A DNA stretch of 64,000 bases from Archangium lipolyticum (GTDB lineage: Bacteria > Myxococcota > Myxococcia > Myxococcales > Myxococcaceae), in contig NZ_JANKBZ010000005.1 in assembly GCF_024623785.1 (NCBI RefSeq), forward strand, positions 62,001 to 126,000, in the 5' to 3' direction. How positions within the stretch are numbered: the stretch's first letter is position 1; every line of letters begins with the position of its first letter. Below, piece by piece: positions 56,443 to 62,377 of the stretch. The notes under the pieces are model-generated. The model was not told where the DNA came from and ran no database searches. It saw only the letters and a list, made by a program, of their open reading frames with translations. A program made the translations under genes and the position numbers.

Positions 56443-56934
56443 ATGCCCGCTCCATCCAATCCAGAACTCGAGGCGTTCACCCGGCCGCTGATGACGCGAG
56501 CGGCGGTGGGCAGCCTCAAGTTGCCGCCGGTGGCGACCTGGCTGGTGCGGGTGAGGCACCCCGAGCACGGTGATGAGCTCAACGGCAGGGCGCTCTGCGA
56601 TGAGATCCGCCAGGCGTTGAAGCACCAGCCGGGCACCTTCTGCTTCTTCTACGACGGCATGGGGATGGTGAACGCGAGGATCGGCTACGCGAACGTGTTC
56701 AAGGAGCTGGATCGCGAGCTGTCGGACCGGGTGACGGAGGTGGTGTGCGCCATCCCCGGTCCCATCCCCCGGATGATGGCCTATACGGTCGCGACGTTGT
56801 CGAGGAGCTCCTGGACCATCTTCCGCACGCTCGCGGAAGCCGAGACGCACCTGCGGATGCGCGGCTATATCGGCCCCGACCTCACCCAGCCCCTCGAGGG
56901 CGGCGTGAATGTCCGGGTGTTGCGCCGCGCCTGA
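56443..56934 (+). CDS. hypothetical STAS-like protein, 163 aa
   Basis: The segment FCFFYDGMGMVNARIGYANVF followed by VVCAIPGPIPRMM suggests an alpha/beta fold like the STAS-type protein at 53.9 kb, but similarity is weak. The ATG at 56443 follows a GGAG. It lies 34 nt before the monooxygenase gene. Confidence 0.6.
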   Translation: MPAPSNPELEAFTRPLMTRAAVGSLKLPPVATWLVRVRHPEHGDELNGRALCDEIRQALKHQPGTFCFFYDGMGMVNARIGYANVFKELDRELSDRVTEVVCAIPGPIPRMMAYTVATLSRSSWTIFRTLAEAETHLRMRGYIGPDLTQPLEGGVNVRVLRRA

Positions 56935-56968
56935 GCTATCGTGGGGCTCCGAAGTTCCTGGGGGGCCC

Positions 56969-58141
56969 ATGGAATCACACGGAGTCGTCATCGTTGGCGG
57001 AGGTATTGGCGGGCTGTGCGCCGCCATCGCGCTCCGCCAGGCTGGATTGGATGTCGCGGTGTACGAGCGGGCCGGGGTCTGGCGGCACGCCGGGGCCGGG
57101 TTGTCGCTCTGGCCCAATGCGATGCGGGCGCTCGATGCGCTGGGACTGGCGCGAGAGGTGGGCGCCCTGGGCGCTCCCTGGCGGGAGACGGTGATCCACC
57201 GCTGGGATGGCAAGGTGCTCTCCCGCCTCCCCGTCGAGGTGCTGTGCCGCGAGCTGGGACAGCCGACCCTGGTGCTGCACCGCGCGGAGCTCATGCGGGT
57301 GCTGCTGAAGGCGCTCGGGCCGGAGGGGGTGCGCCTGGGCGCCGCCTGCACGGGCTTCCTCCGCGAGGACGACGGCGTGCGGATCGACTTCGCCGATGGC
57401 GGGCAGGTGCGTGGCCAGTGCCTCATCGGCGCGGATGGATTGCACTCGGCCGTGCGTCAGCAGCTGTTCCCGGACGTGCGAGTCCGGTACGGCGGCCGGA
57501 CGTCCTGGCGCGGCATCGTGGACGTCACCTCCACCCCGGTGCCCGAAGGGGAGCAGTTCGAGATCTACGGTCCGGGAGCGCGCTTCGGCATCTGTCACAT
57601 CGGCCCGGGGGCGTCGGGCTCGAAGCGGATGTATTGGTTCCTGCTGGCGGCCGCTCCCGAGGGAGGCAAGGACCCCGAGGGAGGGCACAAGGAGGCGGTG
57701 CTGAGCCGCGTCCGCGGATGGATGGCGCCCGTGGAGTCCCTGGTCCACGCCACGCCCGAGGCGGAGATCCTCCGCACGGACATCCACTACCTGGCGCCGC
57801 TGCCGAGCTGGGGTGAGGGGCCGGTCTCGCTGCTGGGAGACGCGGCGCACGCGATGGTCACCGACATGGCCCAGGGTGCGTGCCAGGCCATCGAGGACGC
57901 GCTGGTGCTGGCGAAGCGGCTGCGCAAGGACACCGACAAGGTCCGAGCGCTGCGGGCCTACGAGGCGAGACGTCAACCCCGCACGGCCTACGTGGCCGGG
58001 CTGAGCCTTCGCGTGGGGTCCACCCGGTACCTGCGCAACCCGCTGGGGCGTTGGGCGAGGGATCTGCTGATGCGGACCCTTCCGCCCGCTGTCGCACTGA
58101 ACCAGCTCCGGCCCGTGGTGGCTCACGACTTCATGAGTTAG
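56969..58141 (+). CDS. FAD-dependent aromatic-type monooxygenase
   Basis: 390 residues. The FAD motif is GVVIVGGGIGGLCAAIALRQ; the second (GD) motif is SLLGDAAHAMVTDMAQGACQ, and the linking DG motif is CLIGADGLHSAVR. These place it with para-hydroxybenzoate hydroxylase/zeaxanthin epoxidase relatives. Substrate unknown. Nine nucleotides before the methyltransferase gene, hence probably the same operon. Confidence 0.9.
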   Translation: MESHGVVIVGGGIGGLCAAIALRQAGLDVAVYERAGVWRHAGAGLSLWPNAMRALDALGLAREVGALGAPWRETVIHRWDGKVLSRLPVEVLCRELGQPTLVLHRAELMRVLLKALGPEGVRLGAACTGFLREDDGVRIDFADGGQVRGQCLIGADGLHSAVRQQLFPDVRVRYGGRTSWRGIVDVTSTPVPEGEQFEIYGPGARFGICHIGPGASGSKRMYWFLLAAAPEGGKDPEGGHKEAVLSRVRGWMAPVESLVHATPEAEILRTDIHYLAPLPSWGEGPVSLLGDAAHAMVTDMAQGACQAIEDALVLAKRLRKDTDKVRALRAYEARRQPRTAYVAGLSLRVGSTRYLRNPLGRWARDLLMRTLPPAVALNQLRPVVAHDFMS

Positions 58142-58150
58142 GAGCCATCC

Positions 58151-61100
58151 ATGGCCACCTACCCCGCGTCGCCCCGGGAAGCGTTCCAGCAGCTGCGCAC
58201 CCTGTCCGAGCAGCTCGCGGTGCCCGAGAGCCGCCCGCGTGCCCTCGCGGAGCTGCGGGAGCTGGCCGGGCTCGCCCGGGACAAGCCCGAGGGCGCGCCC
58301 CTGCGGCTCGGCTCGGTGGTGGTGGCGGTGGGCTCCTCCCAGGAGCGGCTGGAGTTGCTGCTGCTGCCCTCCATCTTCTCGCCCGAGGCCTGGGCCCACA
58401 CCTTCCTGGAGGGACTGTTGAAGGTCCCCCTCGATGAGTACGCCGGCAAGCGGCTGGTGGAGGTGGGCGCGGGCTCGGGGTGGGTGTGCATCGCGCTGGC
58501 CCGCTTCACCCGGCTGGCGCACATCCTCGGGGTGGACCTCAATCCCCACTCGGCGCCCGTGGCGTGGTGCAACGCCTGGCTCAACGGGGACGAGGCGCTG
58601 GTGTCGCGGCTCTCCTTCGGGGAGAGCGACCTGCTGCGCCAGGTGGCCGGGCCGGAGCCGTGGGACTTCGTGGTGGGCTGCATTCCGCAGGTGCTGCGCG
58701 GCGAGGGGTTGCCGGCGGAGGTATCCCAGGCCGACGAGCAGGCCCTGTACGACCTGTCCAACTACTGCGCCATCCAGAACGTTTACGAGGACCACTTCGG
58801 GCTGGGGCTCATCGCGCGGCTGCTGGACGAGGTGCCCGAGCGCCTGGCGCCGGACGGGCGGCTGCTGCTCAACCTCGCGGGGCGGCCCGGGCGGGCCATC
58901 ATCGAGCGCATGTTCACCCGGCGCGGCTTCACCACCCGGGTGCGCGTGGCGCGGCGGGTGATGCAGGCGGCGGACACGGACATCCGCCCCCTGGTGGCGC
59001 TGGAGCAGCGCACGCAGCGCGAGTTCGAATTCTTCATGGAGGCGCACAGCCCCGAGCCCCTGCGCGCCGCCACCGCGCTCGGGTGGCTGGCCGCGGGTCA
59101 TCCCATCTGGCACGAGGTGGCGGTATGGGAGGCGAGGCTCGCCCTGCCGCGCGAGACGCTCGCGTTGCGCGCCGCCCTGCGCGCCCTGGGCCTGCCCCGG
59201 TTGCAGGAGGCGCTGGACCTGGCGGCCTCCCCGCCCGAGCAGCTCGGCTTCGTGGCCGGGCTGGCTGAGCGTCTGGCCCGCTCGCCCTTCCTTCCGTACG
59301 CGCACGAGTCCGGGGACCTCAGCCTGCGCCAGCTCGTGGCGCGCTACCTGGGACGCTTCTTCGAGCTGCGGCTCGCGGAGGAGGAACTCTTCGTGGCGCC
59401 CGAGCGCGAGCAGGCGGTGTACTCGCTGCTGCTGGCCACCTGCGACGAGGGCGACGGAGTGCTCGTGTCGCACAACCTGCACGGCGTGTACGCGCCGGTG
59501 CTGGCCAAGGCGGGCGTGCACGTCACCGTCACGCACAACACGCTGGGGGAGATCCGCCGGCTGTTGGGGGCGTTCGACGTGAAGGTGGTGCTGCTGTCGG
59601 TGGAGCCCGGGGAGCGCGCCAACATGGCGGAGCTGCGGGACATCCTCGCCGAGGCGGAGCGGCGGGGCATCCTGGTGGTGCTCGACGAGAGCCCCTTCTT
59701 CAACATCACCGCCGAGGTGGAGCCGCGCACGCTCTTCGAGTTCCTGGCCCGCGAGCCGCACACCTCGCACCTGGTGGTGCTGTACGGGCTCATCAAGAAC
59801 GCCGTCTTCCCGGACTGGGAGCTGACGCTGCTGCTGCCGGTGCCGGAGCGCCTGCGAGAGGACCTGGAGGTGGCGGCGGAGGTGACGTACTCGCGCATCA
59901 GCACGCTGGTGCAGTGGTTCTACGAGCGCACCTTCGCGGAGCTGCTCACCTTCCGCATCGCCTTCGCGGAGCCGCGGCCCCCGCCCGCGCGCCCGGTGCC
60001 GGAGGTGCCCCTGCCGCGCTCCAAGCGCATCGCCCGGCTGGCGGGCTTCCCGGCCTTCGCGCCCAAGGTGTTCCGCGTCGACGACCCGGAGCTCATCCGC
60101 CTGGACTACGGGGAGAACGAGTACCCCCTGCCGCAACCGTTGATGGAGGGGCTGGTGGCGGCGTGCGCGGCGCCGCGCGACTCGGGGACGCAGCACGGGT
60201 TGGCGGAGTCGGTGGCGGCCTTCCTGCTGGAGACGCGGGGCGTGCGCTACACGCCCGAGGAGATATTGCTCGCGCCCGGGGTGTGGCCGCTGGTGCACCA
60301 CCTGGGCGTGGCGCTGCGGCGGATGTTGGGACGTGCTCCGCGCGTGTTCGTGGCCACCCCCTGCTACGGCGTGTTGCCACCCGCGTGGGTGGCCGCCGGG
60401 GCCGAGGTGGACCTGGCGCCCCTGTCCGCCCTTCAGGCGCGGCGGGGGCCGGGCGCTCCGGACGTGGTGGTCATCTCGCAGCCCTCCAACCCCGCCGGGT
60501 ACTACCTGTCCCACGAGGAGCTGGTGGGCCTGGCCGCGTACGTGGTGGAGCAGCGCTGCCTGCTCGTCTCGGATGAAATCTTCGGGTTGGTGAACCTCTC
60601 CAACCCGACGGCGGAGACGGTGCACGGCCCGGTGGGACTGGAGGCGACGGTGCCGGGCATCGGCGCGCGGACGGTGGTGCTCGGGGGCCTGTCCAAGGAG
60701 TTCGCGGCGGGTGGCCTGCGCGTGGGGTGGATGGCGACACGGGACCGGGCGCTGGCGGCGGCGGTGCGGGAGAGCGCGCCGGGCGTGTTGCACCTGGCCA
60801 CGGCGCGGGCGGCTTCGCGTCTCTACGCGGCCTATGCGCGCAGCCCGGAGGGGAAGCTGCTCTACCCGGAGCGGCACCGGGCCCTGCGCGAGTTCCTCGC
60901 GCGCATGCGGAGGGATCTCGCGGAGAAGCGGGAGCTCATCGCCGAGGCTCTGCCCGAGGACGGAAGGGCCGAGACGGTGGAGGCCGGAGGCCTCTTCCTG
61001 GCGCCGAGGGTGACCTCCTGGCTGGGACGCGAGGTGGACGGGGAGCGGCTCACCGTGGAGAACCTGCCCGCGGTGGTGTACGCGCGCACGCACGTGGTGC

Positions 61101-61219
61101 TGAACGGAGGGGACTGGTGTGGAGACCCGGCGCGGATGCGCGTGGTCTTCTCCATTCCCCGCGAGACGTTGCTGAAGGCACGGGAGCGGTTGCTGGCCTT
61201 CGCGGCCGACCTGCGCTGA
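58151..61219 (+). CDS. methionine S-methyltransferase homolog (MTase plus two PLP-fold domains)
   Basis: 1022 residues with the plan of plant methionine S-methyltransferase: an AdoMet methyltransferase (about 60-350; motif I VEVGAGSGW, motif IV VVGCIPQVL), then a first aminotransferase-fold domain (375-640), then a second (660-1020). Landmarks I recall from the plant enzyme are kept: LSNYCAIQ, FGLGLIAR, MQAADTDI and the FEFFM stretch. The first fold has Lys549 in GLIKNAVFPDW and the second Lys849 in GLSKEFAAGGLRVGW, the Schiff-base position of aminotransferases. Predicted product is S-methylmethionine. Not tested by alignment here. Confidence 0.85.
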   Translation: MATYPASPREAFQQLRTLSEQLAVPESRPRALAELRELAGLARDKPEGAPLRLGSVVVAVGSSQERLELLLLPSIFSPEAWAHTFLEGLLKVPLDEYAGKRLVEVGAGSGWVCIALARFTRLAHILGVDLNPHSAPVAWCNAWLNGDEALVSRLSFGESDLLRQVAGPEPWDFVVGCIPQVLRGEGLPAEVSQADEQALYDLSNYCAIQNVYEDHFGLGLIARLLDEVPERLAPDGRLLLNLAGRPGRAIIERMFTRRGFTTRVRVARRVMQAADTDIRPLVALEQRTQREFEFFMEAHSPEPLRAATALGWLAAGHPIWHEVAVWEARLALPRETLALRAALRALGLPRLQEALDLAASPPEQLGFVAGLAERLARSPFLPYAHESGDLSLRQLVARYLGRFFELRLAEEELFVAPEREQAVYSLLLATCDEGDGVLVSHNLHGVYAPVLAKAGVHVTVTHNTLGEIRRLLGAFDVKVVLLSVEPGERANMAELRDILAEAERRGILVVLDESPFFNITAEVEPRTLFEFLAREPHTSHLVVLYGLIKNAVFPDWELTLLLPVPERLREDLEVAAEVTYSRISTLVQWFYERTFAELLTFRIAFAEPRPPPARPVPEVPLPRSKRIARLAGFPAFAPKVFRVDDPELIRLDYGENEYPLPQPLMEGLVAACAAPRDSGTQHGLAESVAAFLLETRGVRYTPEEILLAPGVWPLVHHLGVALRRMLGRAPRVFVATPCYGVLPPAWVAAGAEVDLAPLSALQARRGPGAPDVVVISQPSNPAGYYLSHEELVGLAAYVVEQRCLLVSDEIFGLVNLSNPTAETVHGPVGLEATVPGIGARTVVLGGLSKEFAAGGLRVGWMATRDRALAAAVRESAPGVLHLATARAASRLYAAYARSPEGKLLYPERHRALREFLARMRRDLAEKRELIAEALPEDGRAETVEAGGLFLAPRVTSWLGREVDGERLTVENLPAVVYARTHVVLNGGDWCGDPARMRVVFSIPRETLLKARERLLAFAADLR

Positions 61220-61381
61220 AAGCCTGTCGCGGCGCGTCAGTGTTCATCCCCGAAAACTCCCCGCGTCCGTGATGTGACGGCGGGGCCGCCCACCCTTCCC
61301 GGCTCCGTGCATTCCAGGTATCCCGGGGTTCCGGTCTGATAGGGACCGGGAATCCGGCGCCACGCGCCGTGGGGGGATGTC

Positions 61382-62377
61382 ATGGCGAACCTGAGGAATC
61401 TGCCTCGTCAGGCTTTGGGGGATCTGCAATTCAAGCTGCGCCACCTGCCCCTGGTGGGGACGCTGCGAAACATGCTCGTGAGCGCGCCACCGGAGCTGTC
61501 GAGCCCGGTGCCCCGGGACTCGGGCCTGGTGGATGCGGAGCGGGTGGAGACGTACCGGCGCGCCATCGAGCGCTACGTGAAGCCGGGCCACGTGGTGGTG
61601 GACGTGGGCACGGGCAATGGCCTGCGGGCCTTCCTCGCGGCGAAGCACGGTCCCCGGAAGCTGTACGCGGTGGATGCCTCGCGCAATCTGGACACGGCCC
61701 GCTGGGTGGCCCGCCGCAACGGGCTCTCGGACATCGAGTTCGTGCGCGTGGACAGCTCGCGCTTCCAGCCCCCGGAGAAGGCGGACGTCCTGCTGCATGA
61801 CCAGGTGGGGGACGCGCTCTTCGACACGGGGCTGGTGCCCCGGCTGTTGAACCTGCGCGACCGGGTGCTGGCGCGCGGCGGCCGCATCCTGCCCAACCGC
61901 TTCGAGGTCTTCTTCGAGCCGGTGCAGCTGCGCGAGGAGGCGCGCCTGCCCTTCATCTGGAACCAGCGTCTGCCCAGCGTGGACTTCAGCTGCCTGCAGG
62001 TGCTGCGGGACACGATGGACCCCGCGTACTTCACCCGCTTCATCCGGCCCCAGGACGTGGAGCGGTTGCTGTGCGACCCCGAGCCCGCCTTCGCCCTCGA
62101 CCTGGAGACGCTGCGGGCCGGCGCGCTGCCGCAGCGCCTGCGCCTGTCCCGGCCGGTGGTGCGCGAGGGCCGCATGGACGGCCTGTGCCTCTTCTACCGG
62201 TCCCGCTTCGACTCGGAGCTGTCCTTCGACACCTTCCCCGAGCGCCAGCGGGCTTGTACTCCAGTGCTACTGCTGCGGACGGATCCGCGGGACTTTGCCC
62301 GCTACGAGACGGTTCACGTGGAACTGTCGTTGCCGGAGCTGCCGGACATCACCACATGGCGGTGGAGCTTCCAGTGA
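61382..62377 (+). CDS. PRMT-like class I methyltransferase
   Basis: 331 residues. AdoMet motif I DVGTGNGLRAFLAAKHGP, then LYAVDAS, and a C-terminal beta-barrel-like part with PNRFEVFFEPVQL, as in protein arginine methyltransferases. The double-glutamate loop of eukaryotic PRMTs is not kept (DQVGDALFD). The substrate is therefore open. Translation starts at the ATG of a GGGGGGAT leader; about 160 nt downstream of the MMT gene. Confidence 0.82.
   Translation: MANLRNLPRQALGDLQFKLRHLPLVGTLRNMLVSAPPELSSPVPRDSGLVDAERVETYRRAIERYVKPGHVVVDVGTGNGLRAFLAAKHGPRKLYAVDASRNLDTARWVARRNGLSDIEFVRVDSSRFQPPEKADVLLHDQVGDALFDTGLVPRLLNLRDRVLARGGRILPNRFEVFFEPVQLREEARLPFIWNQRLPSVDFSCLQVLRDTMDPAYFTRFIRPQDVERLLCDPEPAFALDLETLRAGALPQRLRLSRPVVREGRMDGLCLFYRSRFDSELSFDTFPERQRACTPVLLLRTDPRDFARYETVHVELSLPELPDITTWRWSFQ

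Follow-up and report, generated by a model that had tools for sequence, protein, structure and literature searches.

A plant-type methionine S-methyltransferase of Archangium lipolyticum and a predicted PLP site shared by its two aminotransferase folds

For the plant methionine S-methyltransferase (MMT) we found no explanation of the purpose served by the large aminotransferase part of the chain. A gene of the soil bacterium Archangium lipolyticum raises the question of what this part might do in a bacterial relative: does it form one PLP site, two, or a module without any catalysis of its own? The gene lies in a stretch of 64,000 nucleotides (the window, in which all positions below are given), where 58151-61219 on the plus strand translates as a single uninterrupted frame with one stop into a protein of 1022 residues (P0001 in our alignments). 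From its translation, homologues and structural model we annotate it as the coding sequence of a Group III (plant-type) MMT. The first-pass annotation had called it a full-length plant-type MMT in a bacterium and pointed to the motif MQAADTDI, which is indeed found in the translation together with the GxGxG-type motif VGAGSG. In a search with a profile of 29 relatives, hits to class I/II aminotransferases reached E values as low as 6.6e-43 and MmtN (7vvv) was recovered at 1e-27, and matches with E<=1e-30 were obtained in 60 of the 195 genomes of the phylum (12 of 90 genera); thus, the resemblance is not one of chance. An AlphaFold model of the full protein, in the underlying alignment of which the row L037 was entered as a short copy, has a pLDDT of 87.9 and a pTM of 0.86. 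A search of the whole 12.6-Mb genome recovered one full-length copy.

Profile comparison and residue mapping delineate a SAM-dependent methyltransferase domain at the N-terminus (residues about 50-330; 58298-59140, plus strand), which is marked by VGAGSG, Asp129, Leu161, Cys177 and QAADTD. This domain is homologous to that of Roseovarius indicus MmtN, the solved chain of which (305 residues) is without the aminotransferase part that the protein described here possesses; a 19-row profile of the domain recovered 7vvv at 1.7e-28, the best score among the other solved methyltransferases being 2.7e-10. In the main text of PMC9135737 Asp69, Leu102 and Cys121 of MmtN are given as SAM-binding, and Glu127, Arg132 and Glu250 as methionine-binding residues. 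The former three correspond to Asp129 (conserved in 19/19 rows), Leu161 (19/19) and Cys177 (18/19), and residue mapping places Asp160 at the position of MmtN Ser101. The methionine-binding three are without an alignable counterpart here: the stretch from the IPQ motif to SNY is a variable loop, and Glu250 falls on a gap. This lack of a match speaks for a reading in which the domain acts on a substrate other than methionine, making the protein a homologue of MMT rather than an MMT. We regard this as unlikely: MmtN stands well apart from the next solved methyltransferase in the above profile search, and the main text of PMC9135737 counts the bacterial dual-domain proteins as Group III methionine S-methyltransferases, with most SAM- and Met-binding residues described as conserved in MMT.

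Two hallmarks of a Group III MMT are found in this protein, namely an N-terminal MmtN-type domain with GxGxG and SAM-binding residues, and an aminotransferase part in the same chain, as seen in profiles and structure comparison. Judged by architecture and homology, it is probably a plant-type full-length MMT, and the N-terminal domain would pass the methyl group of SAM to the methionine sulfur to yield S-methylmethionine (SMM), using the proximity mechanism proposed for MmtN. Recognition of the bacterial Group III is reportedly due to Williams 2019 and Peng 2022. The first-pass identification is probably sound but not novel, since the main text of PMC9135737 already describes, as 'Group III', MMTs from Deltaproteobacteria and Oligoflexia that have the dual-domain plan of plants; the plan and the bacterial groups are the same as here, and nothing sets this protein apart from them.

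The remainder of the chain comprises two aminotransferase folds, and a comparison of one with the other by hhalign shows them to be related (E 1.5e-13, probability 98). Profiles and models thus agree with the earlier proposal of a methyltransferase followed by two such folds, with the qualification that the first consists of a large domain only. Fold 1 (residues about 360-602; 59228-59956, plus strand; delimited by model, VIA and hhalign) gave a pLDDT of 87.8 when modelled separately and superimposes on residues 47-294 of 2x5d_D (VIA Z 20.2, rmsd 3.3, 234 aligned); it matches just the large domain of class I aminotransferases, the C-terminal small domain being absent. Fold 2 (residues 621-1022; 60011-61216, plus strand) is, according to VIA and profile, a complete class I/II fold (6f77_A: VIA Z 41.0, rmsd 2.3, 370 aligned). 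Its similarity to class I/II aminotransferases, including prephenate/aspartate aminotransferase (6f77, 6f5v) and ACC synthase (3piu, 1m4n), ranges from Z 41.0 to about 36, and ACC synthase 3piu, with Z 37.2, is a fold-level match to fold 2 only, one among many aminotransferases. The scores of ACC synthase, GntC, CobD, PatB and numerous aminotransferases fall within one broad band, so that no specific chemistry can be assigned to fold 2 and none of those identities is excluded. The PLP lysine, the aspartate, the asparagine and both arginines of these enzymes are also present in fold 2. However, unlike them, fold 2 shares its chain with a methyltransferase and another, truncated fold, has a phenylalanine in place of Tyr225, and would take its partner tyrosine from fold 1.

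The predicted Schiff-base lysine for PLP is Lys849 of fold 2 (60695-60697, plus strand), which is situated within GLSKEFAAGGLRVGW. It is present in 66 of 67 aligned rows, the remaining row having a gap, a count that derives from 91 open reading frames reduced to 66 rows by merging identical C-terminal ends, plus P0001, with the query counted twice, and that has to be read alongside the use of [SA]KEFAAGG as one of the two patterns of our contig scan, which favors rows retaining Lys849. Homology searches that did not use the KEFAAGG pattern returned rows with SKLFAAGG, SKEWAIGG and SKEFAVGG, in which the lysine is still kept, and the rows L085, L086, L087, L093, L095 and L096, likewise obtained independently of that pattern, all retain Lys849. 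Asp808 and Arg857 are each conserved in 66/67 rows, and Asn780, Tyr739 and Arg997 in 65/67 each.

We compared the two folds over 29 rows using the ordinary aminotransferase P0009 as a ruler. This revealed that the equivalents of the Schiff-base lysine, Asp222, Asn194, Arg266 and Arg386 are all present in fold 2, as Lys849, Asp808, Asn780, Arg857 and Arg997 respectively. A lysine occupies the Schiff-base position of fold 2 in all 29 rows and that of fold 1 in 20, and the Arg266 position holds an arginine in 29/29 rows in fold 2 as against 2/29 in fold 1. In ordinary aminotransferase dimers Tyr70 enters the active site of the neighboring subunit and holds the PLP phosphate. A tyrosine of this type is found in fold 1 in 28 of the 29 rows (Tyr383 here; 59297-59299, plus strand) and at the corresponding position of fold 2 in a single one; Arg393 of fold 1 is invariant (29/29). 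Fold 1 has thus retained what serves its partner and given up much of the equipment for a site of its own, while fold 2 shows the reverse, from which we infer one intramolecular PLP site built from both folds. By these residue patterns only fold 2 resembles a PLP site, and fold 1 looks like its partner.

These patterns also bear on the first-pass statement that the 'PLP lysines' are kept. Both are indeed present in this protein, with Lys549 (59795-59797, plus strand) at the Schiff-base position of fold 1, though Lys849 alone is conserved in the relatives. Binding of PLP by both folds, via Lys549 and Lys849 respectively, might be argued from the position of the former and from the motif LDES, which puts an aspartate ahead of it. 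Against this, fold 1 lacks the small domain and an NPxG motif, it has a glutamate at the Arg266 position, and Lys549 is absent in 9/29 rows; we accordingly hold two PLP sites to be very improbable, and of the two implied earlier retain that of fold 2, with fold 1 as its partner.

The explanation that best accommodates these observations, and which we consider probable on the strength of sequence conservation and models, is a Group III MMT that would make SMM and have one PLP site shared by the two folds, possibly a catalytic one. Packed against each other within one chain, the two aminotransferase folds would take the place of the dimer that aminotransferases usually form. Fold 2 would supply Lys849, Asp808, Asn780, Tyr739, Arg857 and Arg997 to the single site, and Tyr383 of fold 1 would reach across to the PLP phosphate. 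More speculatively, the site would be catalytic and act on SMM or a close relative thereof. Transamination would be the default chemistry, being that of the nearest families. However, the equivalent of Tyr225 is absent from fold 2, which has Phe811 at this position (phenylalanine in 27/29 rows); this would weaken an ordinary transaminase and would permit decarboxylation or elimination.

The same phenylalanine is consistent with another account, whose probability we place a little below even, namely that the PLP site is occupied and non-catalytic, the module serving a monofunctional MMT in a regulatory or structural role, as is presumed for plants; the effector would be PLP or an amino acid. 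That fold 1 has already been cut to half a subunit, and that the gene has no linked pathway genes, would also fit. Less easily reconciled with it is the retention of the main cofactor residues and Tyr383 across rows that share only about 25-30% identity. Also pointing away from it is the relative L096, a protein of 632 residues with unrelated genes on either side, which consists of the two folds without a methyltransferase domain and yet keeps the PLP residues, suggesting that the module can be worth keeping in its own right. Elsewhere in the available assembly of the L096 genome the methyltransferase profile gave no strong hit, the best being 2.9e-9 in an open frame of 297 residues. By eye, the ORF adjoining this stand-alone two-fold protein (L096:1480-3378) reads like an ammonium transporter.

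Decay in a different direction is seen in L071 (L071:8001-10925): the frame is open and Lys849 is retained, but in the methyltransferase domain the GxGxG and IPQ/SNY motifs are degraded or gone, and Asn780, Tyr739 and Arg997 are lost. This counts against the favored explanation, as do the lack of alignable methionine-binding residues, the absence of a neighboring gene that would point to a substrate, and the fact that four of six genomes of the genus do without the gene. Three further relatives from 'Deltaproteobacteria' MAGs (L075:3442-8175, L076:2667-7406 and L079:3299-8689) carry N-terminal extensions of roughly 600-870 residues that gave no Pfam match.

The first-pass annotation had further proposed that the second-fold lysine is kept where plants have lost theirs, and that the bacterial form could be the older, catalytically complete one. 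For comparison we used a sequence that we take to be that of Arabidopsis MMT (At5g49810). It aligns over nearly its full length, sharing 25% identity with P0001 and 38% with either of the nearest two Bdellovibrionota MMTs, and presumably has the same SAM motifs and QAADTDI as the protein described here. Assuming this sequence to be correct, five PLP-site letters that the bacterial protein possesses are changed in the plant enzyme: leucine stands at Lys849, serine at Asn780, lysine at Arg857, asparagine at Tyr739 and phenylalanine at Tyr383, while Asp808, Arg997 and Lys549 are kept. The loss of the lysine in plants, as set against the bacterial conservation of Lys849 noted above, is therefore as proposed, on that presumed sequence. 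Given that Lys549 is found both there and in 20/29 bacterial rows, it is no marker of a difference between bacteria and plants.

In a tree of 20 of the 30 rows (L095, L096 and eight close Myxococcota rows being left out) the presumed Arabidopsis sequence groups with six Bdellovibrionota-type rows on a branch with support 100/100, its place inside the group being unsettled in this long-branch tree. Lys849, Arg857, Asp808 and Tyr383 are present in 6/6 of these rows, and Asn780 in 5/6, L074 having an aspartate. Since the bacterial rows keep Lys849 and the presumed plant sequence groups with Bdellovibrionota, parsimony favors the bacterial, PLP-complete state as the older. On this reading of one assumed plant sequence and a long-branch tree, the PLP site would have been lost on the plant line, where the aminotransferase module would persist as a scaffold or regulator. 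The proposed polarity may thus be upheld by parsimony, with the plant letters taken on our assumption. Williams 2019 and Bourgis 1999, which are said to be the key earlier papers on MMT, lie outside the coverage of our literature search, within which there was no recognized report of the lost plant lysine. In the main text of PMC9135737 'PLP' and 'pyridoxal' each have 0 occurrences; the account of Group III MMT given there is without an analysis of the PLP site, unlike the one presented here.

We also examined the locus and its relatives for contextual information. Directly upstream of the MMT gene, across a gap of 9 bp, lies a gene for an FAD-dependent monooxygenase-like protein (56909-58141, plus strand, start codon uncertain; Pfam FAD_binding_3, 3.5e-30), which is likely co-transcribed with MMT here; in the other genera examined, no such gene was seen next to MMT. 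Within the genus the two genes (56909-61219) are present in 2/6 genomes and absent from 4/6, with collinear flanks. In one of the latter (L109) the left flank match ends at window position 56935 and the right one begins at 61229, at adjoining positions of the locus, so that the junction is almost exact and the two genes are missing together; in L107, L108 and L110 about 0.8-1.1 kb without a match to the window separates the flank matches. Downstream of MMT (61382-62377) is a methyltransferase-like gene of the PrmA/Methyltransf_31 type. Many loci of Myxococcus and Pyxidicoccus have this gene close to MMT, unlike the Corallococcus loci searched. Because the MMT of Pyxidicoccus and several Myxococcus adjoins this same gene, the evidence favors loss from the four congeners rather than gain here, and their lack of the gene indicates that MMT is dispensable.

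No methionine or DMSP genes were seen near MMT in the loci compared, and the flanking genes vary between genera, on account of which we rejected the neighborhood as a clue to the substrate. The main text of PMC9135737 likewise describes Group III MMT as having no linked DMSP or methionine genes and a role that is difficult to predict, and reports that one of four tested strains made DMSP. Elsewhere in the same genome an ORF of 330 residues (L098:1450-2442), just downstream of an alcohol dehydrogenase-like ORF, resembles homocysteine methyltransferases and is a possible SMM-using partner. The genome also has a MetH-size open frame elsewhere. Since both score below the cut-off curated for the MmuM-type family, an SMM cycle in this genome is only possible.

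The 60 matching genomes of the phylum were sampled by reading loci from 30, from 8 more, and from the records shared with the contig scan. Beyond them, profile searches recovered relatives in 7/368 genomes from the phylum of L073, in 1/298 genomes from the order of Longispora albida, and in 6/46 genomes from the phylum of L075, two of the latter six being without the methyltransferase part, one of these at a contig end. The contig scan returned 36 loci, among them ones from Myxococcus xanthus, Corallococcus, Pyxidicoccus, Longispora and Bdellovibrionota; the last of the 36 (L080) proved to be an ordinary aminotransferase only. One record titled Comamonas sp. KCTC 72670 (L060) carries a myxobacterial MMT locus, and its name looks wrong. 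Mobile or viral spread of MMT was considered and rejected, with no relative in the IMG/VR pattern scan and no match in plasmids at 1e-20.

The protein itself joins the known Group III, and it is the proposed PLP site split between two folds that is worth following. We put forward, as a proposal that we hold to be possible but rather doubtful, that these proteins are bifunctional MMTs that both make and consume SMM (or a relative) at the shared PLP site, and that plants inherited a Bdellovibrionota-like form and dismantled the site, leaving a relic scaffold. Candidate products of such a bifunctional enzyme would be DMSP-amine if it decarboxylates, dimethyl sulfide and ACC if it catalyzes an elimination, or else the oxo acid known from the DMSP route. 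If the bacterial relatives do use a working PLP site, a relic would be the most fitting interpretation of the aminotransferase part of the plant enzyme, and what SMM does in these bacteria would become testable.
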